NCBI GenBank assembly: GCA_020850575.1
Contig: JADZEJ010000007.1
Location: forward strand, 62,001 to 126,000
Length of the DNA: 64,000 nt
Direction: 5' to 3'
Origin: Candidatus Uhrbacteria bacterium
Lineage (GTDB): Bacteria > Patescibacteriota > Patescibacteriia > 2-12-FULL-60-25
This document shows, one piece after another, positions 2,911-55,683 of this stretch (within the stretch, counting starts at the first letter, position 1; the number at the start of each line of letters is the position of its first letter). Below the pieces are notes generated by a model. It made no database searches, was not told where the DNA came from, and saw only the letters and a list, made by a program, of their open reading frames with translations. A program made the position numbers and the translations under genes.

Positions 2911-3684
2911 TCAATTTTGTTGTGATGAATTTCGATGCATCGGAGCTGCAGACTTTTGTAATAATGCTCCGCCTAAACGAGCACGAGCTGATTCCCACTC
3001 TGTATGACCTTCTTTACAAGCCTGAGCCATCACGGTTGCAATAAGCTCAATTGATTTCACAGCATCATCATTTGCCGGAATACAGTAATCAACGTCGTGT
3101 GGATTTACATTCGAATCACACAAAGCAATTACCTTTACTCCACGGCGAACTGCCTCTTCAAGAGCTGTCTTGTCTTTACGAATATCAAAAATCAAAATAG
3201 CTTCTGGAATACGCGTCAATTCTTGAATACCACCAATTTTTTCTTCAAGCAATTCTATTTCTTCCCCAAAACGTTGCTGTTCAAGCTTGGTATATTTCGC
3301 AAGTTCACCACGTTCCTGCTTACGCTTTAAATCCTTAAATTTTCGAATCTGTTGAGAAATGATCGAAAAATTCGTCATCGTACCTCCCAACCAACGATTC
3401 GTAACATAAGGCATGTTTGCAGATTGTGCCGACTTTTCAACCAAGTGCATTGCTTGCTTCTTGGTTCCTACGAACATGACATTACCACCGCGTTGCGTCA
3501 CCGATTTAGCAAAGGCGGCCGCTTTTTCAAGAGCCTTCTGTGTCTCTTCAAGATTGATGATATGAATACCATTACGACTTCCAAAAAGGAATTTCTTCAT
3601 CTTTGGATGCCACTTTGAGGTCTGATGTCCAAAATGAACACCAGCCTGCAAAAGTTCCAACAAACTAGGAACTTTATGAGCCAT
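2911..3684 (-). CDS. rpsB: 30S ribosomal protein S2
   Basis: S2 binds the body of the 30S subunit and helps recruit S1 where that is present. The 257-residue product shows the family pattern from its N-terminus: LLEAGVHFGHQ-like (LLQAGVHFGHQTSKWHP), IHIINLEET, FVGTKKQA, RWLGGTMTNF and the central ELTRIPEAILIFDIRKD segment. The ATG at 3684 has GGAGG about 17 bases upstream, which is further than usual. A leader of about 155 bases precedes it. It heads an operon with tsf. Confidence 0.97.
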   Translation of the reverse strand: MAHKVPSLLELLQAGVHFGHQTSKWHPKMKKFLFGSRNGIHIINLEETQKALEKAAAFAKSVTQRGGNVMFVGTKKQAMHLVEKSAQSANMPYVTNRWLGGTMTNFSIISQQIRKFKDLKRKQERGELAKYTKLEQQRFGEEIELLEEKIGGIQELTRIPEAILIFDIRKDKTALEEAVRRGVKVIALCDSNVNPHDVDYCIPANDDAVKSIELIATVMAQACKEGHTEWESARARLGGALLQKSAAPMHRNSSQQN

Positions 3685-41437: not shown

Positions 41438-44400
41438 TTATTCATCAGAACGAAGCTCGATATATCCATTGTAACGGATCCAAGGATCATATGTGAAGGA
41501 TGAATTATTATAACGACTCTTCATCGAAGATTCAGCATCACACATGTTAATTTTCAGAGAATAATCTATAAAAGTGTTTTGCGAATATGATTTAGATGCA
41601 TCATAACAACCACCATTTTTCAGACTCAAATCCTTTGGACTTACTGGTGGATTTTTCAAGCTCAAGCTGGATGGTAATGAATCTTTACAATTCCCTGTAC
41701 ACCAGCCCCAATTATCTTGTACAAACACGCGTGGAACAAATCGACATTCAGTTTTTGCATTACTCACGTTATTACCAACAGTACAACTCTTTTCAATCGC
41801 ATTTTTTTGAGCACCCACTGAGAAATATGGACAATCCATAGCAGGTTTTTGTAAATTACTGCAATTATAAGCGTGCTTAAATTCAAAGTAATTTGCCTCA
41901 CAGGCTAACGGGCTCGAGCCATACGTCAATCGCTCCACACAAGTCGCGCCTTCACCGCAATCCGTATATCCAGCCAAACCGGCACGACAGCTGCGACCTG
42001 AATTATTAGAACAAAAACCTGTTCCTACACATTTACCTGCTGCCGCTGGACAATCAGCATCTGAATTACAAGTTAATCCCGGTACAAATTCACATTGTTT
42101 TGACACTCCGCAGAATGGTTTTTTGTTTTTAACACGAGCTTCAGATACTTTCTGCATCGAGCCATCACCCCAATCAATCCACACATCTGAAATTGGAGCT
42201 TGATTATCAGCCGACCAGGCATAAAAACGCATCGTCACACTTGACTGAGAGCCATAATAAATGACATTACCTTCGGTTGCATTATCAATATTTATGGCAT
42301 CCATGCGTGCAATGGCACATTGACCAGGTGAAGTACATTGTCTAGACGTATCGGGAGCGGCAATACGAGGAGCTATTGGCGTATAACCCGAAGTAAACCG
42401 TTGATCGTAATATTCAGATGAACTTTCATGCTTTGCATCAACGCTCGTTCCGGAACCAGGAATAATACTTAAATCCTTTTTAATCGCATACAAACCAAAA
42501 GTGACATCAGTCGGAGAAGCGATAGCATGTGATTTCATCGGTACAAAATACGATCCTGAAATCAACGGACTGCGCAAACACACTTCATTTTCCGGATTCA
42601 TGTAACACAAATCCGGTCGAGGATAATAACCAACTCCATGCGTACATCGATTATTGTCCATATCTTCATCATCAGAAGTACTCGAGACTCCTTGACAATC
42701 CGTACCCATTGAAATAGAGGTTCCGTTCAAATTTACTGAATATTTAAAGTTTTTTGGAGTACCATTTTCTGTAACCGGTTGACAACTTTGTTGCAAAATT
42801 TGAGTGGTTAGCGGTGTTATATTCACAATACATTCACTAGATTGTGTCAAACCAGTACATGGCGCACCGGATCTTGCTCCACCTTTACAAATACCGGCAT
42901 CACTACCCAAGGCAGGAGTACCGTCATCTTTAACACAGATAACATTTGTAATCGGATCGCAATCACTGCCATTCTTACAATAACGTCCGGCAAAAGGTCC
43001 AAGAAAACACATCTTATCTGTCTTTTTCACCGGAAGATCATAATATTGATACACCTGGTAGATACGAGCAAACAAGTTTGAAAGAGTTGAATATTGATAA
43101 ATAGCCATATCTTTTACTGAAGAAATTCGAGACCGTAAACCATATTCTTGTCCTGCTTTAACAAATGTCGCATCAGGAGCAATAAAACCCTTAGTCGTAT
43201 CCAACATCATCATCGCATCATGACCAATCATACGTTGATGTAATGCCGCACCGAACGGAGCATTTTCAGTTCCATACGTATAATTTTGCAATGGAACAGT
43301 AAAATCCGATTGCTGCCAAACACGATCGGTAAAGGCTGCATTTTTTCGATCAACCGGTGAAACAACTTGAGCAACATCACGACATGCGTTTGCAGCACCG
43401 GCTGTAATACGCATATAAATTGCCCGACTGCTAACAGTATTTGGAGCGACCGCCGTTACCCAAAAACCTACGAACTTGAACGGTCCACGCAAACCACTTC
43501 CATCGATTGGTTGCTCGAGAGCTGAAGTAGCATTATCCTTCTCGTTCATATTCTCAAACATCGCACGAATGGCAAAATAAGGACGGTCACCAAAGGCTTT
43601 GTGAAAATACGTATTTTTAGGGTTGATAGGTACCGGACCCAAAGCGCCATCAGTGCTTCCAAACAAATTAAACTTTGATTCGTTTTCATCATTATATCCA
43701 AGTTCCCAGTATTTGTAATAACACATTTTATTCGGATCTTTTGAGCAAGGTATTTTCAAGAGATTCGATTGATCTTGTGTTTTTAAATACCCTTGTTTGG
43801 CACGTGATAATAAACCGTTAAAATTTTTGTTAAAACCTTTATACCATTTATCCGATTCTTGTTTAACGGCAACTTCATCCTTCCAATTTGAAACTGAAAC
43901 TCCATCTACCCATTCAGGTGAAAACAAACAACCCAAAGGCCCATATTGAGTCACCTTATCATCTTCTTCATAGTCAGTATCGGTTAAGTTAAATTTAGTT
44001 GGTTGTAAGTGATGTTGATTATCAACTGGAGGAGTAGTCAATACGTATTTAAATACTATATCAGAACATTTAAGACTATTAAATTCAATCTCAGCATTCT
44101 TTAATCCCACCGGATCAATACCAGTAGCATATAAATCTTCTGCTTTAGCATGTTGATCATCAATATAGTTTTTTAGTGGAGCACATTTTTGTGTATATAA
44201 ATCATATTCATCAGCTGTGAGTCCGGATTCTTTTTCTGAATCGGGTGGTGTTGGATTCAACAAAGTAAAATTTTTATCGCCTTGATATGAATTTGCTATT
44301 GGATACGGACCACCATCTCTTGCGGTTAACATTTTGAAATAATTGCTATATTTTTCGTCTTTTGGAGGCGTAGTATCCCATAAAAATTCATCATCCCAAT

Positions 44401-47400
44401 CAACATTGGTCTTGCCCGGTTGTGGAACATGAAAAGAAAAATACGCAAGCTGTGATTCTAATAATGTATCATTGTCAAGTTTGATATCCGACAAGTCAGA
44501 ATAAAGTCTTGAGCTTCCAAGCATTGATGGGGTAATAAAATATTCAGCATAATTCTTATCCTTTCCTTCACCCGTTGTCACCACACGCAATGAACTAAGA
44601 TCAACTCCTACATTTGTTGGAACAGAAAAAGTAGATCGTGATAAATATGTGGTAGCTTGATGAATTAATACAGCATCTTCGTTTAACGCACAATCGTTAA
44701 TTCCTAAGCCACAAGCTAATTCATTAAATATTAATTTAGTAAACTCATATACTCCTGCTAATGCAGTCAATGGAATAGTTACAGGAAAAAATCCAAGAAA
44801 TTGTGCAGTAGTCTTTGCATTAAGATTACTTCCCATTTTTTCTGTTTTAGCAAAAGCATTTTCACGAGCACTTAACAAAATAATAGCTTCAGGGGCTAGA
44901 GCATCTTTCAAAGTTGTATAAGCATCTGTTAAATAATAATATCGAGCCGCTAAATCATGATAAGCGATCTTTCGAATACCACAAATTTTAGCCATCTCCG
45001 ATTCACGAATATCAGAACCATCAACATTAGAACAAGTTTCTGGTTCACCTAGTTTAAGCAAAGTTGTTGTAGCTGATGAAATTGCATAATTAATATCATT
45101 ACCTCCAGGATAATGCTCGTCTGTGCCACCTCCAATACCAGTATCCTTTACGGCAGCGTATCCAAAATCAAACAAAGATTCACGATATTTGTAAGTGCCA
45201 TTCGTACAAGATTCACGATATAATAATGACTCAACATGACTCATCTTACCAGGTGCTTCTAGCATGTCATAATCAAAAAGACTTACATTTTCTTTACGAA
45301 AACTAGGATTAACACAATAGTATTCCCCAGAATTAAGCGGCGGATTATAACCAACCGTAGGGCTGTAATGATACACATCCTTAGTGCCGGACAAAACCGG
45401 TTGCGGACTCCAAGTTAAACACTGAAATTGACCCTTTGCTCCAACAGTTACCGCTGAATCACGTTGAATGCAATAACCGGGCGTTCCACGAACATACGAG
45501 GTTCCTTCCAATGGTCGACAAATGGAATTAGCTCCACAAGCTTCATTGTACGGAGACTGTGCAGGAACAGCTACACCATTCTCATCAGTGTTTTCTAATT
45601 TTGTATTTGGAATACAAGCTTGCCCATTTTTTGATCCCCCAAAACAAACTCCTTGAGGCGGAGCGCTTTTCGAAGTAACACCTAAATATTTAGTCAATCC
45701 CTCTCCATAATTCGCTTTTGCATACTGACAAGAACAATCTTCGCCACGTTCACAAACTGCCGCTTTATCAAAACCAGCGATATATGTTTTCACGACATTT
45801 GGCTGAATTAATGTATCCCATTCCTTTACAACATCATTACTAAAAGGTGCTTGAGCATCAGGATACGCTTTACACTCAACACCCGGCATAACTTGATTCA
45901 TGTACGAACTATGAGACGCTTTTGGATCTTGTGCGAAAACGGTAGCGATCGTCTGCGCATTTCGTGAATTTCCTGCGGCACCTTGAACATCTGTTACAAC
46001 CTGTGTAAGCGGTGTATCAATCGCTAAATAACAACGTTTCGGTTCTTCGTCAGGCACAAAATAACCAACTTGTTTTGTAAATTTATGCTGACATAAATGT
46101 AATTTCGGTCTCACCGGATCAGTAATCTGTTCCGCCCAACCGAGTTGACCATATTTCGTAACTCCAATGGCAGTCTTTTCTTGATCAGTCATCGCTAAAG
46201 GAATGCTTGCAACAAAACGATAATCATCAAAATACTCATTTGCCTTCTTTGGATTTTCATCTCTTAAAATCTCATAACCGACACGACGACTTACCAAATC
46301 AGCCATTTGAAAACGATTTGCGATCGTATAGCCGGAATAATCAGGATCTCCAAATTCTGTTTTACGCATTGAATATGAGCGATCATTCATGAATACACCT
46401 TCACGCAACACCTTTTCATAATATGGGTCATTGATCTTTTTCGGTTGCGGCTGCGCTAAAGTTCTGTTCAAGTAATTACCACAATAATTTCCTTGAGAAG
46501 ACCCTCCTGAGCGATCACATAACGAAAACTCCGTACATAAATCAACATACTTTTGCTGTGTATCATCATAAACGGTTTCTCCTGAACGACAACCGAACCA
46601 AGCCTTACAATCACGATCAAGTTTTACTTTAATGACTCTATTTGAATCATTTTGTTCACAACGAGCGGTAGCTACAGGTTTTCCTTGAGAATCGGCTGAA
46701 ACACAATCTGCATCCGTTGTACATGCGGCGTACAACAACGCATTCTTTTCATTCTCACAACTTGTATTAGCAGCGGCGCAAGTAGGTTCAAGACAAATAC
46801 CCTTCCCAACACAAAATGGATTACCTTTATCCTTAAATGCACAATCAAGCGGAGTTACTCCGATATCGCCTTTTGCATGAGATTCGGCATACGTTGCCTT
46901 GGCATTAAAGCGTAATGTCGCATCATTGGTATCTCGAATCAAAACACAACCATTAAACGGATCCGCAACATCTCCACACGTGGATTTATCAATATTACCG
47001 TTATTTATAAAATAATAAGGTTTGCCGACTGGTCTAGAAGAATCTGAATGATCATTTGAGTCTCTAAATTCAGTACATTCACTTTGATCTTTTGGACAAT
47101 TAGCCGTCCAACCTTGATAATCATTCGTCATTGGTGCGCTTACTAAGAACGTATTTGCATTCGACAATAAATGTGGATAACAAGGCAGTGTCGAAGTACC
47201 CGACTGCATAAACCAACCAGAATACTGTCCAGCTGGATAAGAGTAAGCCGGCAATCCTTTTTCATCATCAGCTAATGCGCTCGCAGCTGAAAGAGTGACT
47301 TTATCCTTCCATGTACACGCATGCTCTTGAGGATCACGAAAGTATGATACGACGCTATCACTGACAAAGGTATCACAAAACAGTTCAGATGGACGGCACA

Positions 47401-50400
47401 TCATATCCGGCTCACCATCTAACACGTATTTTGTAATATCATCGATCAAATACACCGTTTGAGTTCCCGTTTGCTTCCAAGCCGGATCCAATGTTGGTTT
47501 ACCAAAAGCTCGACAAGAATCCTGACTTGCATCACATCGCACACTTGGTGCATCAATAACGTAGATATTTCTATCCGCCGGTCGTGTTGTAGTAACCGTA
47601 CCAGAATATAAATTATCTAACTTACGAGCAGGTTCAACGGTATTCGGCAAACCCTTCATTGCAAATTGCTGAACATACGGATCCGCTGAATTTCGCGTAT
47701 CAACATATCCGGTACAACCGACCGTCTCAAACTTACATAAGTTGTTAAATTGTCTTACATTTACTTGTTTTGAATTTCGATCTTGATACGCACGACAACC
47801 CAGCATCGCCAATGGTTGTACAACGCCTTCAGTGGTTCGATCACACTCAGCTGGAATCACCCAAGTATCTTTTGCAACATATTCTACATCACGTAATTGT
47901 TTAACCTTAACTTCATCTATATATGTTTCTTTTGGTAAATTATAAATAAATACTTTATTATCCGTGGCTGTTTTATTGGTAGAAAATGGACCAAGCTCAT
48001 ATCGTTTCCATTCAGTAGTTAGCCTAAAAGGAGATCGATTATTCGCAGCATCCTGAACGGCAACAAAAGAATTTGTAAAGTTCTGTTTACCGGATTTAGC
48101 CCAAAAACTAACCATATACAAACTACCGGTATTCGAGGTGAATGAAACTTCAGTTCCACCCTTCCCATCTTCAAGATGTGTAACTTTTAACGAATTATCA
48201 CCAACTAATAACGCTTCTTGAGAAAAACTTAAAGTCGATCCTTCTCCATAAGCAGCTTTACCTATGACAAATCCGGCTGCAGACTTGGCACCACTGAACG
48301 TATCCGTAATGATTGTTTGATAGTTTTTACCGTTTGTTCCAACATAGCCACGACAACCCGCATATTGCTGAGGACACAAAGCACTTTCTGGGATATTCAC
48401 TGAATAAAAACATTGTTTTGCCGTTGAATTCCAATTTCCACCAGTCTTTGTACAATCATCAATGTTTGAAAAAGAAATACGATAATCCGTACACGAACTT
48501 GTCGACAAAACAGTTTGCGAATAATAAATATAATAAACAGCACCACTTTCATTATAAAATTGACGACAATCTAAATCCGTACCTGTTTTCCAAGATTCTG
48601 CATTACAATTTGCAGCTGCCTTCAAAAAACCATCTGGACCTGCTTTTGCCAAGACTTTTGGTTGATCGCCGTTTGCAATCAAACTCCACGTTCGTAATTG
48701 GTAACCGGTCTGATCAGAACCTTCCCATGTAAAAAATGTTTTTGAATTCTGACCAGGAAGTTCACAAGCGCGAACATAACTAAAATATGCCTTTGATTCA
48801 CCTCCCGCTGCTTGATTTTCAACACTTGTAAATTCTTCACAACCAACCGCATCTGCAGTACACGTCAATGCATTTGTTGGAATAAAATTTGCCACCGTAT
48901 CATCATCAGCATCATTCAATTGGGCATTTTCTGTATTTTTCGTTAAATCAAAAGCAGTCGGTTGCTTACGATATTCTGCATATCCAACACAAGATTCTGG
49001 ACAAAAATCCAAACGACTCAAATTAGCAGGAATTTCACTACCATCACCATCTACTTCATGATACGCCTGACAACCGGCATCAATTTGTGAGCAAACACGA
49101 GCATATTTTCCGCATTCTGCCCGATCAGTTGCCTCAACTCCCGTACAAGCTAACTCTTCTGGAGCAATTTTCAAATGTTGTTCAACCAATGATGTATTAA
49201 CTCCATCAACGTATTCGGTTGGAGTCTGACCTTCTTCAACTTGAACCGCATCAATGACAGCCTGTTTACCCTTGATAGTTATCAATAAACCCGTAACACC
49301 ATTCGGTATGGTAAACGAACATGTTTCTCGTCCCCAATTATCACTCAAACTAGCTTTAGAGCTAACAAGATTTCCAGCGGATGCCTGACAATCTGATCCA
49401 AATGTCACAGTTGGTGGCAAGACACCTAATAACGTGTACTTCTTTCCATCCCGACCAAAATAGGTTTTACCAAGTTCCGTATATGGTGTTAAAAGACCCA
49501 TCTGAATCTCAACAGCTCCCATTTGACCTGGAACACGATTTTTTCCATAAAGTGACATCGTATAATATCTATTTCCGACCGCCGAAATAACTTGCGAAAT
49601 TTCACGCATTTGCGCATCTTCAAAATCTAAAGCGACGGAACCAACAAACGCATCTTCTTCACCTGTTGGCGTTTCATAGCTTTTAAGCACATAAGGATTC
49701 AAAGAGTTATTTTGCCAAGCTTGCAACCTCGATGAAGCCGCCTCATCCAATACTTCAAATGAACTATTTTGTAGTAAATTCAATGAACTCGTTTGTGGTT
49801 CCATGGTGTACAACTTGGTACAACCATCATTTGATGCATCACAAGTTTTCACCGTTTTATCAAAATAAATACGCGATGCAGGAGCATTTCCGATATTTTC
49901 CCAATTACTATCAGTAATCTTCCAATTTGAAGCAATAGATCCTCTCCATACATCGGCGGTTGATGTCGACACATCACGCAGTGTCAAATAATACAAACAA
50001 CCGGAATTATCTGCTGTACAAGCACCGTAATCAATCGTGTTACGGACATACGATACAATTTCATTTGTTGAAGTCTGCGTACCGGGTTCAGCTCCTAATT
50101 GCTTATTTGGTTTTTTAAAACTTCGGCAACTGGAAAATCTTTCATCACATTGATCTCCTCCAAAACGCCATACCATTTTTTCAGCAGCACAATATCCATA
50201 TCCTCCGATACAATTCCCCTTATCATCTCTGGTTAAACAAGAAACAACATCCACACATTCTTGAACACGAATAGCTGGAGCTTGATTTTCTCCGCCTATA
50301 ACCGTATCAGTAAATCCTTCAACCGAACACTTAAACGGAGGAGTTGTTAAAATCCAAGCTGGATTTATAAGTTTACACCATGGATGTTGTTCGTCGATTT

Positions 50401-51967
50401 CACCTTGGGAATTACAATTTGTAAAACCGGCAATCACTTGCCCAAGTGTAATATATTTTCCTTGATATTTTTTATTATAAACAGAGTTTGCCGCCAATTC
50501 CCAACCAATAGGTAAAATACGCGAAAAACGAAGTTTTGCTAAATTCGTCGCACAATAAGCGCGTTGATAACAACCGGGATCTTGATTATCTTTTGTTTCC
50601 CATTCCGGAATCAATTCCCAATCTGGATGAAGAAAAAACGTTTTTGACCCGGGCAGCAAACCGGCAGCTTTACCAACCGTCATACCACCTTCTGTTCCTG
50701 CACCTCTCAAAGCACTAGCCAAGCCATTATCCATGCTACAACCCCATAAACCACGTGGCTGCGGACAAGTCGACATCAACACCGTAAAATCCTGTTGTTC
50801 GCCCGTATTCATATTCGGACGTAACAAATCACTAAAATACTGAGATATGATATTTTTTCGACGATTTTGGGTTGAATCAGCAGTTCCTGATTCAGCATTT
50901 GTATCAATCCCCTCATTAGTTAAATCAATCGGATAGACAAATTGATCATTAGATGCTGATTCAAAATACTTCATTAAATCAGATAAGCCACGTACCGCGA
51001 TCGTATTCGCAAACGAACCTGCCGCAATGCTAGGTAATTGCCATAAACCTGCCTGCAATGACATCATAATCATCGCGGTAGCATTTAACTGATTATTTAA
51101 ATTAAGAACATGAAGATTATTCACGTTAGAAAGCGAATCCCTTGCCACCTGTGAAGGCTGCTTAATATTCCCATCAATCAAATTCTTAAAGTTTTTAAAT
51201 CCTTGACCCTCTTGACGATCTAAAATCGCCGCATTTTGTTTATTTGCCCATTTTTGTAAAAATACCTGATTCGCACTTAGAGCGACATTAATCGAATTTC
51301 CACCAAAAGAAACACTTTGTTTCAAATTCATTGCAAGTTGTTCTTTTGATAACGAGTCTTTCGTTGTATTAAATGCCTCCATCATTCTTGTATAGGTACA
51401 ACGAGGTTCACCTGGACCTTTCATCCTCCCAACTCCTAAAGCAAGCTTCAAGTTTAATGAAATGGACTGACAAATATTTAAACCTAATTCAGTTTTAAAA
51501 TAATTTTCATTTAAATTTTCTAATTGTCTATTAAAAATATCATTGCCAAGACTCTTCAAAAAGTCACCAAATTCCATGGAATAAAATTGTGGCGTCTCAT
51601 CAAAACCGCTGTACACATAATTTGCCACTTGCGCTGCCGCCATTTGAGTAAATAATGAAAAACTATCGAGCAAACCAGCGATAACTCCAAAAACGACATT
51701 TTTACGAACAAATTCAGATCTATCTTTCAAGTAATCAAAGATATGACATTCATATTGTAGTTCAATGCCAACTGTTGCACCCGGTGAAGTACCAAGAGTC
51801 GTACCAGAATGTGCACATGGAAAAACTGGTGGGAGGGCAACTGACGCATCTGCGGAAAATGCAAAACCAGGTCGTATCATCAACACTCCAATCAGTGACA
51901 TCACAATCACGCTCGTGACCACACTGAAGCGTAATAACCGATTTCGAAAAAAAGCGTTAAAGTCCAT
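41438..51967 (-). CDS. Giant cysteine-rich surface protein (3509 residues)
   Basis: An N-terminal membrane segment or signal (about residues 14-36, VVTSVIVMSLIGVLMI) exports the protein. Hydrophobic stretches also occur near 90-115 and 290-325. Between residues 650 and 1635 a motif C-x6-C-x2-[FY] occurs nine times (650, 709, 959, 1036, 1198, 1411, 1478, 1524, 1624). Two beta-sandwich regions (about 729-923 and 1220-1357) look like carbohydrate-binding jelly rolls, starting NLLQNSSFEVL in the first and ending in xIDxVxV-type strands. Later come CxxDxDC clusters and, near 3180, a PKD-like DVWIDWGDGS. No catalytic site is visible. It probably builds a disulfide-stabilised surface structure for attachment. 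It follows its small partner gene by four bases. The reading frame is unbroken over 10.5 kb. Confidence 0.85.
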   Translation of the reverse strand: MDFNAFFRNRLLRFSVVTSVIVMSLIGVLMIRPGFAFSADASVALPPVFPCAHSGTTLGTSPGATVGIELQYECHIFDYLKDRSEFVRKNVVFGVIAGLLDSFSLFTQMAAAQVANYVYSGFDETPQFYSMEFGDFLKSLGNDIFNRQLENLNENYFKTELGLNICQSISLNLKLALGVGRMKGPGEPRCTYTRMMEAFNTTKDSLSKEQLAMNLKQSVSFGGNSINVALSANQVFLQKWANKQNAAILDRQEGQGFKNFKNLIDGNIKQPSQVARDSLSNVNNLHVLNLNNQLNATAMIMMSLQAGLWQLPSIAAGSFANTIAVRGLSDLMKYFESASNDQFVYPIDLTNEGIDTNAESGTADSTQNRRKNIISQYFSDLLRPNMNTGEQQDFTVLMSTCPQPRGLWGCSMDNGLASALRGAGTEGGMTVGKAAGLLPGSKTFFLHPDWELIPEWETKDNQDPGCYQRAYCATNLAKLRFSRILPIGWELAANSVYNKKYQGKYITLGQVIAGFTNCNSQGEIDEQHPWCKLINPAWILTTPPFKCSVEGFTDTVIGGENQAPAIRVQECVDVVSCLTRDDKGNCIGGYGYCAAEKMVWRFGGDQCDERFSSCRSFKKPNKQLGAEPGTQTSTNEIVSYVRNTIDYGACTADNSGCLYYLTLRDVSTSTADVWRGSIASNWKITDSNWENIGNAPASRIYFDKTVKTCDASNDGCTKLYTMEPQTSSLNLLQNSSFEVLDEAASSRLQAWQNNSLNPYVLKSYETPTGEEDAFVGSVALDFEDAQMREISQVISAVGNRYYTMSLYGKNRVPGQMGAVEIQMGLLTPYTELGKTYFGRDGKKYTLLGVLPPTVTFGSDCQASAGNLVSSKASLSDNWGRETCSFTIPNGVTGLLITIKGKQAVIDAVQVEEGQTPTEYVDGVNTSLVEQHLKIAPEELACTGVEATDRAECGKYARVCSQIDAGCQAYHEVDGDGSEIPANLSRLDFCPESCVGYAEYRKQPTAFDLTKNTENAQLNDADDDTVANFIPTNALTCTADAVGCEEFTSVENQAAGGESKAYFSYVRACELPGQNSKTFFTWEGSDQTGYQLRTWSLIANGDQPKVLAKAGPDGFLKAAANCNAESWKTGTDLDCRQFYNESGAVYYIYYSQTVLSTSSCTDYRISFSNIDDCTKTGGNWNSTAKQCFYSVNIPESALCPQQYAGCRGYVGTNGKNYQTIITDTFSGAKSAAGFVIGKAAYGEGSTLSFSQEALLVGDNSLKVTHLEDGKGGTEVSFTSNTGSLYMVSFWAKSGKQNFTNSFVAVQDAANNRSPFRLTTEWKRYELGPFSTNKTATDNKVFIYNLPKETYIDEVKVKQLRDVEYVAKDTWVIPAECDRTTEGVVQPLAMLGCRAYQDRNSKQVNVRQFNNLCKFETVGCTGYVDTRNSADPYVQQFAMKGLPNTVEPARKLDNLYSGTVTTTRPADRNIYVIDAPSVRCDASQDSCRAFGKPTLDPAWKQTGTQTVYLIDDITKYVLDGEPDMMCRPSELFCDTFVSDSVVSYFRDPQEHACTWKDKVTLSAASALADDEKGLPAYSYPAGQYSGWFMQSGTSTLPCYPHLLSNANTFLVSAPMTNDYQGWTANCPKDQSECTEFRDSNDHSDSSRPVGKPYYFINNGNIDKSTCGDVADPFNGCVLIRDTNDATLRFNAKATYAESHAKGDIGVTPLDCAFKDKGNPFCVGKGICLEPTCAAANTSCENEKNALLYAACTTDADCVSADSQGKPVATARCEQNDSNRVIKVKLDRDCKAWFGCRSGETVYDDTQQKYVDLCTEFSLCDRSGGSSQGNYCGNYLNRTLAQPQPKKINDPYYEKVLREGVFMNDRSYSMRKTEFGDPDYSGYTIANRFQMADLVSRRVGYEILRDENPKKANEYFDDYRFVASIPLAMTDQEKTAIGVTKYGQLGWAEQITDPVRPKLHLCQHKFTKQVGYFVPDEEPKRCYLAIDTPLTQVVTDVQGAAGNSRNAQTIATVFAQDPKASHSSYMNQVMPGVECKAYPDAQAPFSNDVVKEWDTLIQPNVVKTYIAGFDKAAVCERGEDCSCQYAKANYGEGLTKYLGVTSKSAPPQGVCFGGSKNGQACIPNTKLENTDENGVAVPAQSPYNEACGANSICRPLEGTSYVRGTPGYCIQRDSAVTVGAKGQFQCLTWSPQPVLSGTKDVYHYSPTVGYNPPLNSGEYYCVNPSFRKENVSLFDYDMLEAPGKMSHVESLLYRESCTNGTYKYRESLFDFGYAAVKDTGIGGGTDEHYPGGNDINYAISSATTTLLKLGEPETCSNVDGSDIRESEMAKICGIRKIAYHDLAARYYYLTDAYTTLKDALAPEAIILLSARENAFAKTEKMGSNLNAKTTAQFLGFFPVTIPLTALAGVYEFTKLIFNELACGLGINDCALNEDAVLIHQATTYLSRSTFSVPTNVGVDLSSLRVVTTGEGKDKNYAEYFITPSMLGSSRLYSDLSDIKLDNDTLLESQLAYFSFHVPQPGKTNVDWDDEFLWDTTPPKDEKYSNYFKMLTARDGGPYPIANSYQGDKNFTLLNPTPPDSEKESGLTADEYDLYTQKCAPLKNYIDDQHAKAEDLYATGIDPVGLKNAEIEFNSLKCSDIVFKYVLTTPPVDNQHHLQPTKFNLTDTDYEEDDKVTQYGPLGCLFSPEWVDGVSVSNWKDEVAVKQESDKWYKGFNKNFNGLLSRAKQGYLKTQDQSNLLKIPCSKDPNKMCYYKYWELGYNDENESKFNLFGSTDGALGPVPINPKNTYFHKAFGDRPYFAIRAMFENMNEKDNATSALEQPIDGSGLRGPFKFVGFWVTAVAPNTVSSRAIYMRITAGAANACRDVAQVVSPVDRKNAAFTDRVWQQSDFTVPLQNYTYGTENAPFGAALHQRMIGHDAMMMLDTTKGFIAPDATFVKAGQEYGLRSRISSVKDMAIYQYSTLSNLFARIYQVYQYYDLPVKKTDKMCFLGPFAGRYCKNGSDCDPITNVICVKDDGTPALGSDAGICKGGARSGAPCTGLTQSSECIVNITPLTTQILQQSCQPVTENGTPKNFKYSVNLNGTSISMGTDCQGVSSTSDDEDMDNNRCTHGVGYYPRPDLCYMNPENEVCLRSPLISGSYFVPMKSHAIASPTDVTFGLYAIKKDLSIIPGSGTSVDAKHESSSEYYDQRFTSGYTPIAPRIAAPDTSRQCTSPGQCAIARMDAINIDNATEGNVIYYGSQSSVTMRFYAWSADNQAPISDVWIDWGDGSMQKVSEARVKNKKPFCGVSKQCEFVPGLTCNSDADCPAAAGKCVGTGFCSNNSGRSCRAGLAGYTDCGEGATCVERLTYGSSPLACEANYFEFKHAYNCSNLQKPAMDCPYFSVGAQKNAIEKSCTVGNNVSNAKTECRFVPRVFVQDNWGWCTGNCKDSLPSSLSLKNPPVSPKDLSLKNGGCYDASKSYSQNTFIDYSLKINMCDAESSMKSRYNNSSFTYDPWIRYNGYIELRSDE

Positions 51968-53275: not shown

Positions 53276-55144
53276 TTAGTTCCCGGCATCAGGTGACATC
53301 GGAACCGATGCCGTACCTGAATCAGACGATAATTTTTCCACTCCAATCAAACACACAGCTTGCCAAGGACGATAATGACTTTTAAAAACTTCTGATTTTA
53401 CTTCCCCATTTGGATAGGTCACTGAATAGGTAAACTCCGCATCCGCACCGGCGTGTGCCGTTTCTGTACATTTCTTTTTTCCTGGAGGTAAATTCGTCGT
53501 TTCCACCAATTTCATCGGAGGCGGTGAAGTAATATTGTATACTCGTGGTTTTTCTGGAAAATCTGCGATTCGCCCATCCTTCGTCCCCCAATATTCAACA
53601 AATGCCTCATCACCCTTTACATAAGCATGCAAATAAATCGGATGAGTAGTATCATTCTTAAATCGATAGTCAGGTTTTGGATCATAAATCGTTGCATCTG
53701 TACCAACCGGCTCGTAATACCGAACACGATATGAGTGATTACGACGTTCAACGACTGGTAAACCTGCTCGCAATGTGCCTCGAAAAACGGTCGTGCCCAC
53801 TTGGCACAAACCACCACCAAATTCTGGCGTTGTTTCATTACCCTTAATAACCAATTCCGGTAACCATTGATGTTCACCATCGATTGGACCTAATACCTTA
53901 ATCAAAGAAAATTCTTCCCCTGGTTGTAACAACGTGCCGTTAACCTTCGCCAATCCGAGTGCGATATTTTTACGACGATTTGATGGTGATCCGGAAAATT
54001 CTGATTTGCCTACACCTAATAATTCTTTAATTCCCAGCGTTTCCGGATCAATACCCGTAAGTTTAGCCGGCGTACGAATCGTCACTAAAGGAAATGTTGT
54101 CGTTGTAGGCCATTCTGCGATCACTTGTTTCAAGGTTGCCTTTCCATCAAATGCGATACCTTCCGTCCCGCCGGTAAAAGATTCAACCTTCCCATCCTTC
54201 AAAACCAATCCTCCCACCTTTCCTTCTTGTTCAACGTGCGGAAACAGCTCACGCATCGAAGCCTCAAATAAAGTTGAATTCAACATGATATCAATAGTAG
54301 TTGTATCAGGGATCAACGAAATCCATCCAGCAAAAGTCGACGTCGGAATCGGTACCGTCTTTTTATCGTAAGTAAACGACAAAGCAGGTCGCTTTAACCA
54401 TTCCTCAATCTTAGGCAGTAAAGCCTCGAGCGAAGCTTTTGTCACCAAAGGCTCGCGTACCTGATCAAGTAAAACGATCGGTTCAAAACGTAAATCCTGA
54501 GTTTCGTTTTGTAAATTATCAATCGCTCGGTCAAATAGTAATTCAGTGCCACGAATTTCTGGCACAATCGTTATTTTCGGCATAACTTCTCCTGTTGATG
54601 TCGATATTTGTATAGCCGCATCTTGTGGTGTAATCACATCTTGAGCAAAGGCCTGTTTTAAACCATCGCTAATGCCTGTACGAAAAATATCCACCTCAAC
54701 TGGAATTTGTTTTTGTACCAAACGTAAGCGAATTTGTTGTTGAATCTGTTGTTGCCAACTGCCGGTACGGGCATACCCATATGCTCGATCAATCGCATCT
54801 GAAACACGATAACTTAATAAATCTCGAGCGGCATCAGGATTCATCGCATCACCCGACACATCCAAAGAAACTGTTTTTCCTTTATACGTAAAAGGTAATC
54901 CTTTTTCTAGAGCGGCATCTACCGCAGACTGAACTTGAATACGAGCTTCTTCACGTGTCATACCACCAACCGGTACCGACAACACATGCAAACCTGGAAA
55001 TAACCGATTTTCATACAAACGACCATAACTCACCAAACCACCGACAAGTAATAACAAAAAAAATGCTAATAATGCGATACCGACATTGATCCATGTCATG
55101 GCAAGACGCAAATTCTGAGCTAATCGTTTTTTCTCAACCGCCAT
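53276..55144 (-). CDS. VanW family protein with peptidoglycan-binding-type domains
   Basis: The start chosen is the ATG at 55144 (MAVEKKRLAQNL), giving 622 residues. A membrane helix near residues 20-40 (VGIALLAFFLLLLVGGLVS) anchors it. Two repeats of a YkuD-associated/PG-binding-4-like type follow, starting with VLSVPVGGMTREEARIQV. The VanW domain near residues 390-520 shows FSLIKVLGPIDGEHQW, EFGGGLCQVGTTVFRGTL and RNHSYRVRYYEPVGTDATIY. VanW proteins are found in vancomycin-resistance clusters and in many Gram-positives, but their activity is not established. It lies seven bases after a small gene and probably works on the cell wall. Confidence 0.88.
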   Translation of the reverse strand: MAVEKKRLAQNLRLAMTWINVGIALLAFFLLLLVGGLVSYGRLYENRLFPGLHVLSVPVGGMTREEARIQVQSAVDAALEKGLPFTYKGKTVSLDVSGDAMNPDAARDLLSYRVSDAIDRAYGYARTGSWQQQIQQQIRLRLVQKQIPVEVDIFRTGISDGLKQAFAQDVITPQDAAIQISTSTGEVMPKITIVPEIRGTELLFDRAIDNLQNETQDLRFEPIVLLDQVREPLVTKASLEALLPKIEEWLKRPALSFTYDKKTVPIPTSTFAGWISLIPDTTTIDIMLNSTLFEASMRELFPHVEQEGKVGGLVLKDGKVESFTGGTEGIAFDGKATLKQVIAEWPTTTTFPLVTIRTPAKLTGIDPETLGIKELLGVGKSEFSGSPSNRRKNIALGLAKVNGTLLQPGEEFSLIKVLGPIDGEHQWLPELVIKGNETTPEFGGGLCQVGTTVFRGTLRAGLPVVERRNHSYRVRYYEPVGTDATIYDPKPDYRFKNDTTHPIYLHAYVKGDEAFVEYWGTKDGRIADFPEKPRVYNITSPPPMKLVETTNLPPGKKKCTETAHAGADAEFTYSVTYPNGEVKSEVFKSHYRPWQAVCLIGVEKLSSDSGTASVPMSPDAGN

Positions 55145-55151
55145 ATAAAAA

Positions 55152-55382
55152 TTAATCTGATGATAATAATTCATTCAAAATACTTGCAGCAAAAACGCTC
55201 TTCCCAGCATTTTCTCCGCCTTGCGGGAGCGCCAACAATGCGATTGAATCACCCACTTTGGGTAAAAACTCAAAAGCACTCACCGGAATACTCCAATTCC
55301 GACCGGTTGAATCAACAAGCGTAATTTCTTGATCTAGAATGTCAGTAACCTTGCCGATAAACGGATGATAAGACTGATTCAT
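55152..55382 (-). CDS. Small beta-rich protein
   Basis: No family is recognised in this 76-residue product. The sequence (GKVTDILDQEITLVDSTGRNW, then FLPKVGDSIALLAL) suggests a small beta-barrel with turns at DSTG and KVGD. There is no signal peptide. It lies directly upstream of the VanW gene and downstream of the structured RNA region, so one promoter may serve all three. A clear Shine-Dalgarno sequence is lacking. Confidence 0.6.
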   Translation of the reverse strand: MNQSYHPFIGKVTDILDQEITLVDSTGRNWSIPVSAFEFLPKVGDSIALLALPQGGENAGKSVFAASILNELLSSD

Positions 55383-55409: not shown

Positions 55410-55551
55410 AAATAAAATAAGACCTCAAGCAATCCGCACCCAAGAAACCTTTTTGTAGGTTTGAGCGAGTCCGAAGACCTGCTGCACCCTATGAAAAGGT
55501 TCCATGCTTGTCGTGGACGCGGATTGCTTCAGGCCTCATTTTCCCAATGAA
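55410..55551 (-). ncRNA. Structured RNA under a strong promoter (6S-like or leader RNA)
   Basis: On the minus strand a near-consensus promoter starts an RNA near 55551. A 14- to 15-base-pair closing stem (55423-55437 with 55519-55533) is followed inside by a large asymmetric loop and an AACCUUUU / AAAAGGUU helix. A UAGG / CCUA helix comes next, then an 8-pair tip with an internal mismatch and a C-UUCG-G tetraloop (loop at 55472-55475). After the closing stem comes TTATTTTATTTC. A single long hairpin with a central bulge recalls 6S RNA. SRP and 5S signatures were looked for and not found. It could also be the leader of the genes starting at 55382. Confidence 0.6.
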
Positions 55552-55557
55552 TAGCAC

Positions 55558-55586
55558 TTTATACCGAAATAAAATGAAATTGTCAA
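55558..55586 (-). promoter_or_regulatory. Strong promoter of the structured RNA
   Basis: A perfect TTGACA (55581-55586), a 17-base spacer and TATAAA (55558-55563) give one of the best consensus matches in the window. Only some 100 bases separate it from the SMC gene end at 55684. Confidence 0.8.
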
Positions 55587-55683
55587 GAGATGTACCCTAA
55601 AAAAACCAAAGGGACGAAAAAACGGTCAAATGGCCGTTGATTCGAAAGATCTATATAGTTTATAACAAGGTAGAAAATAGCTG

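Follow-up and report, generated by a model that had tools for sequence, protein, structure and literature searches.

On the minus strand of the window, by which we mean the whole analysed stretch of 64,000 nucleotides from a contig of Candidatus Uhrbacteria bacterium, lies the gene of a structured RNA which is conserved throughout class ABY1 of the Patescibacteria, independently transcribed and new. We put the probability of this reading at about 0.97. The locus is best explained as a single-copy RNA gene which, under the control of its own sigma-70-type promoter, gives rise to a stable RNA of about 130 to 140 nt. The first-pass annotation had listed it as an unknown structured RNA, and this description is strongly supported both by the occurrence of a single copy in most related genomes and by strong covariation.

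Conservation and architecture of the RNA

Within its own family the RNA is readily recognised at the DNA level, as BLAST misses it in just one of 36 genomes; one of the 35 matches is weak (E 0.05), the other 34 reach E 2e-11 or better. DNA matches in other families do not exceed chance level. A covariance model built from a MAFFT alignment of 30 relatives (R1) detects the RNA in 239 of the 286 genomes in class ABY1, usually as a single copy. We take this GTDB class to be the group of Uhrbacteria, Falkowbacteria, Magasanikbacteria, Kerfeldbacteria and Buchananbacteria. Compensatory changes, which had been proposed as a check, are present in 41 of the 44 base pairs among 83 copies stemming mostly from different families, and 93.3% of the cells of this alignment pair, compared to 63.5% in shuffles and 40-52% if the partners are slid by one to three columns; the 83-copy alignment is fitted to the model and hence biased towards structure, while the unfitted MAFFT-only alignment of 30 copies, with double changes in 20 of its 44 pairs, agrees in direction. 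The folded RNA (55555-55415) reaches -64.5 kcal/mol, compared to a mean of -36.8 kcal/mol for 200 dinucleotide shuffles (z = -7.4), none of which is equally stable.

The Rfam covariance search likewise proposed beforehand matched no known family: in Rfam 15 there is no match even at permissive thresholds, and signatures of 5S, SRP and tRNA are absent, as had been stated. Near misses to rliA, to miRNA and snoRNA families and to a CRISPR repeat are at chance level. The core pattern also recurs by chance in unrelated genomes, Dyadobacter and Sphingomonas among them, but these matches fail the covariance model. Matches on the opposite strand result from the palindromic shape of the RNA, the strand being decided by promoter and tail.

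The predicted single hairpin proved correct with respect to its long outer stem, its asymmetric loop and its UUCG tip, yet the conserved domain comprises 126 nt instead of the 111 bases originally assigned to it. The closing stem P1 consists of 24 pairs and varies freely in sequence. Between P1 and P2 the large asymmetric loop turns out to be one-sided, with the ten nucleotides CGACAAGCAU bulging from the 5' strand opposite a single U. The inner arm is composed of P2, P3 and P4 and follows the motif GG...UCNGG-loop-CUCGA...CC, P2 beginning with a near-invariant G-U pair. Across the class, CACGACAAGCAU, the two G directly following it and the 3' UUCUUG are near-invariant; within the latter, columns U142 to G146 are conserved in 81 to 83 of the 83 sequences. 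In one divergent member (L128) the pair C29-G146 is changed to G-C, which favours the bulge structure over an alternative pairing of CAAG with CUUG, although this pairing may be adopted as a second state. In the copies L278 (G055) and L284 (G089) the apical arm has acquired long insertions, whereas the bulge and the nearby stems are retained. Nearly all genomes of family f32 harbour two tandem copies of the RNA, such as L094:2817-2937 and 3034-3159, and these pairs resemble the two 6S RNAs of some Firmicutes. A clear ABY1-type RNA (96 bits) is also present on JAACEG010000018.1 (L208), a contig titled Lysobacteraceae which equals an ABY1 contig of genome G173 both in length and in the position of the RNA; the title is probably wrong.

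An RNA gene independent of its neighbours

The promoter TTGACA-N17-TATAAA, reported by the first-pass annotation to precede the hairpin, is indeed found on the minus strand and is conserved in relatives (Table 1). Transcription would hence start close to position 55551. A promoter of the form TTGACA/TAnnnT is present at most 80 bases upstream of the RNA in 44 of 81 class loci, compared to a mean of 1.5 and a maximum of 6 in shuffles and to 1 of 81 on the opposite strand. Upstream of the RNA gene is an SMC gene, which is ended by a terminator-like hairpin of its own. At its other end, P1 probably serves as the intrinsic terminator of the RNA gene. Elsewhere in the window, the minus strand harbours a Cys-rich open reading frame of 3509 amino acids (41438-51967) without Pfam match.

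Table 1. Positions of the RNA gene, its parts and its neighbours in the window, and of phage-borne copies of the RNA
Feature	Position	Strand	Basis or source
-35 element TTGACA	55581..55586	minus	read directly from the sequence
-10 element TATAAA, spacer of 17 bases	55558..55563	minus	sequence; conserved in relatives
Conserved structured RNA domain, 126 nt (P1, one-sided bulge, P2, P3, P4)	55413..55538	minus	covariance models R1 and R2
10-nt 5' bulge CGACAAGCAU	55504..55513	minus	nearly invariant in 83 class RNAs; retained in phage copies
Near-invariant 3' strand UUCUUG opposite the bulge	55441..55446	minus	alignment of 83 sequences
UUCG tip loop on P4	55472..55475	minus	sequence and fold; tip variable in relatives
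U-rich tail behind P1	55409..55419	minus	sequence; U-rich 3' end in many relatives
Terminator-like hairpin behind SMC, between SMC and the RNA gene	55621..55638	minus	
76-aa open reading frame, outside the RNA gene	55152..55382	minus	neighbouring; no Pfam match
VanW-domain gene	53276..55174	minus	PF04294, E 5.4e-40
Phage RNA copy	L248:4197-4324		IMGVR_UViG_3300025103_003706
Phage RNA copies	L249:1-114 and L347:7333-7446		3300006789_000279
Phage RNA copy	L349:7603-7738		3300007512_000191

In the window, 28 bases separate position 55410 from the start of a small open reading frame which is followed by the VanW gene, exactly as first described. One of the two roles originally suggested, a regulatory leader for cell-wall genes, had to be abandoned. 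VanW adjoins the RNA in 65 of 83 loci, and this shared synteny indicates common descent of the RNA loci. Its orientation, however, is convergent in 54 of them, while it lies downstream on the same strand in only 6 and upstream in 5; some relatives have trxB or another gene of the opposite strand next to the RNA instead. A cis-acting leader would always be located upstream of and co-directional with its gene, whereas in most class loci the downstream gene is on the opposite strand. Since VanW usually resides on the opposite strand, a leader for VanW is ruled out. In the window and in close relatives the RNA is positioned upstream of both the small gene and VanW on the same strand, but a role in cis as their leader or riboswitch is extremely improbable, the more so as the downstream gene varies and the transcript is ended by P1 and the U-rich tail. 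The other side of the RNA is occupied at many loci by genes for ClpP, a DHH phosphoesterase or RuvB. Just as little credit can be given to the notion that the RNA is merely a strong terminator, or a hairpin in the 3' UTR, belonging to the gene upstream. P1 followed by U does behave like a terminator, and within the own family the upstream gene is often co-directional. Yet most relatives possess a promoter dedicated to the RNA, the upstream genes occur in either orientation, and neither the invariant internal bulge nor the covarying inner arm fits a mere terminator. With its strand and its neighbours varying among relatives, the RNA gene is independent of the genes which surround it.

Copies in phages and in related lineages

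The exact core CACGACAAGCAUGG...CUCUUGUC is present in an RNA (40.2 bits) on two IMG/VR contigs, which represent one phage found in two samples. This RNA adjoins genes for Erf, a ParB-like protein, a PAPS-reductase-like protein and a YqaJ/RecE-like protein. A second phage, whose exonuclease is 65% identical, contains a homologue of the RNA at the same place with altered stems, and both phage RNAs fold with the same 10-nt bulge open. The copies are located directly behind a 100-aa gene in the Erf/YqaJ recombination region. A member of ABY1 is the natural guess for the phage host. The phage copies represent a natural test of RNA function and suggest that the RNA touches a process worth hijacking.

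Outside ABY1, covariance model R2 matches the RNA in 5 of 7 genomes from a further, small class of Patescibacteria. One of the five, G382, carries it between RuvB and VanW as in ABY1, the bulge being replaced by a few other bases; the bulge of this sister class measures only 3-5 nt. In family f172, R2 also detects RNAs of 157-168 nt in 8 of 11 genomes (E 0.0013 or better); their junction bears one 5' and one 3' hairpin. A model derived from the f172 RNAs (R3) adds five families and independently recovers the copies of ABY1 and of the sister class at identical loci. All copies found by R3 are immediately preceded by perfect or near-perfect promoters. In some related lineages (f123) the 5' strand is almost devoid of unpaired bases, and larger two-sided junctions are seen only in distant homologues. 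Two matches of R2 and R3 outside the RNA family (G360 C17 and G318) are plain terminator hairpins. We read these RNAs as one divergent family present in part of the Patescibacteria; its most distant members are connected with ABY1 by moderate scores (per-genome E of 1e-6 to 1e-5) and by a common layout.

6S RNA and other possible roles

The Rfam model of 6S RNA (SsrS, RF00013), which detects both the E. coli and the B. subtilis RNA used as controls, matches neither the window nor, with E values of up to 10 admitted, any of 19 relatives. Among 18 other Patescibacteria genomes tested, six have an RF00013 match with E < 0.01, which in four genomes is full-length (31-42.5 bits, cut-off 46.4). The CCCACCU 3' motif of 6S is present in those near-threshold matches whose sequence includes that part. 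Four canonical-looking 6S RNAs of other Patescibacteria just under the Rfam cut-off (L339, L340, L341 and L342) are apparently unannotated, and an open-access literature search for 6S RNA in Patescibacteria or CPR returned no paper. Conversely, none of the 20 tested genomes carrying the ABY1-type RNA has a match to RF00013 at E up to 1, and the 18 genomes without this RNA yield no credible R3 match under lax filters. The resulting exclusion (0/20 versus 6/18) has a hypergeometric probability of 0.007 by our own arithmetic, which ignores relatedness and concerns few, related genomes.

This complementary distribution makes the replacement of 6S the best single guess, and we tentatively propose, at somewhat less than even odds, that the ABY1 RNA substitutes for 6S RNA and, like it, binds RNA polymerase. 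Like 6S, it is a stand-alone, single-copy housekeeping RNA with a strong conserved promoter and the shape of a rod with a central interruption. In related lineages hairpins at the 5' and/or 3' side of the junction recall the central bubble of 6S-1. The ABY1 RNA occurs where canonical 6S is undetected. Unlike 6S, it contains a 10 x 1 bulge of invariant sequence in place of an open, two-sided bubble and is not matched by the 6S model; its 126 nt make it shorter than any 6S RNA we know of. Sequence invariance of this kind is not usual in 6S RNAs and could equally well reflect a protein or an RNA partner. One of the shortest 6S RNAs measures about 160 nt (PMC9130861). A precedent for the replacement of 6S by another RNA is Ms1 of the Actinobacteria, a structured RNA of 6S-like look which replaces 6S phylum-wide and binds the RNA polymerase core (PMC9130861), albeit with about 300 nt and a synteny of its own. 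The initial proposal of a CPR form of 6S RNA thus survives as the best functional guess, while formal membership fails on the negative Rfam search and the missing two-sided bubble. That the RNA is a true 6S RNA merely too divergent for the Rfam model would agree with its promoter, its rod shape, its single copy and a distribution complementary to near-threshold 6S. We nevertheless consider this improbable since, beyond these two discrepancies, neither R3 nor R2 matches the canonical 6S loci of Patescibacteria.

If the ABY1 RNA does replace 6S, the long stem P1 would sit in RNA polymerase as the downstream duplex, the invariant bulge CGACAAGCAU would act close to the active site as a template-like strand, and the inner arm would correspond to the upstream region. 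Initiation within the bulge would yield a short product RNA complementary to the bulge and to the 5' side of P1 (5'-GUCGUGGACGCGG-like), and its synthesis would open P1. The 3' CUUG set free in this way could form base pairs with CAAG of the bulge, leading to release of the polymerase. This putative release step resembles the 'central bubble collapse helix' of B. subtilis 6S-1 (PMC8876501).

About as likely as the replacement of 6S is a housekeeping role in which the invariant bulge docks a protein or pairs with an RNA, the hairpin serving as scaffold; the RNA would then neither derive from 6S nor act on RNA polymerase. The near-total class-wide invariance of CACGACAAGCAUGG...UUCUUG bears the mark of a binding site, this core is retained in the phage copies despite their changed stems, and the lack of any 6S model match points in the same direction. 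On the other hand, no partner protein has been identified and no universal RNA target for the bulge emerges at a length of 12 nt: a search with its 12-nt complement, G-U pairs allowed, revealed no site common to all genomes besides the RNA itself. Pairing with 16S rRNA was discarded, as the best site in the own 16S contains two mismatches. Far less probable is a divergent SRP RNA. The bacterial small SRP RNA (RF00169) is also a short, hairpin-shaped housekeeping RNA, and none is detectable in the class (0 of 19 relatives over the cut-off). The ABY1 RNA, however, has neither an RF00169 match nor the conserved SRP tip, and an SRP role is excluded because the class essentially lacks SRP54 domains: among 19 ABY1 genomes a single one has a match above the cut-off, and that match is partial, whereas detection succeeds in 14 of 14 control genomes. 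SRP54-domain proteins, Ffh and FtsY, are accordingly essentially undetectable class-wide; loss of the whole SRP pathway in ABY1, if true, would be notable in itself.

Patescibacteria account for a major share of bacterial diversity and are little known; their genomes are reduced, and few regulators have been described in them. The ABY1 RNA, absent from Rfam and from searchable papers, would be the first known housekeeping regulatory RNA of its class. It may, though we would not wager on it at even stakes, constitute a new class of housekeeping RNA in a large part of the Patescibacteria, unrelated to 6S and SRP, acting through its 10-nt bulge on an as yet unnamed partner and captured by phages to steer their host. 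Should it bind RNA polymerase, it would show 6S RNA rebuilt into a minimal form; should the link to 6S fail, it would be a categorically new kind of bacterial RNA.
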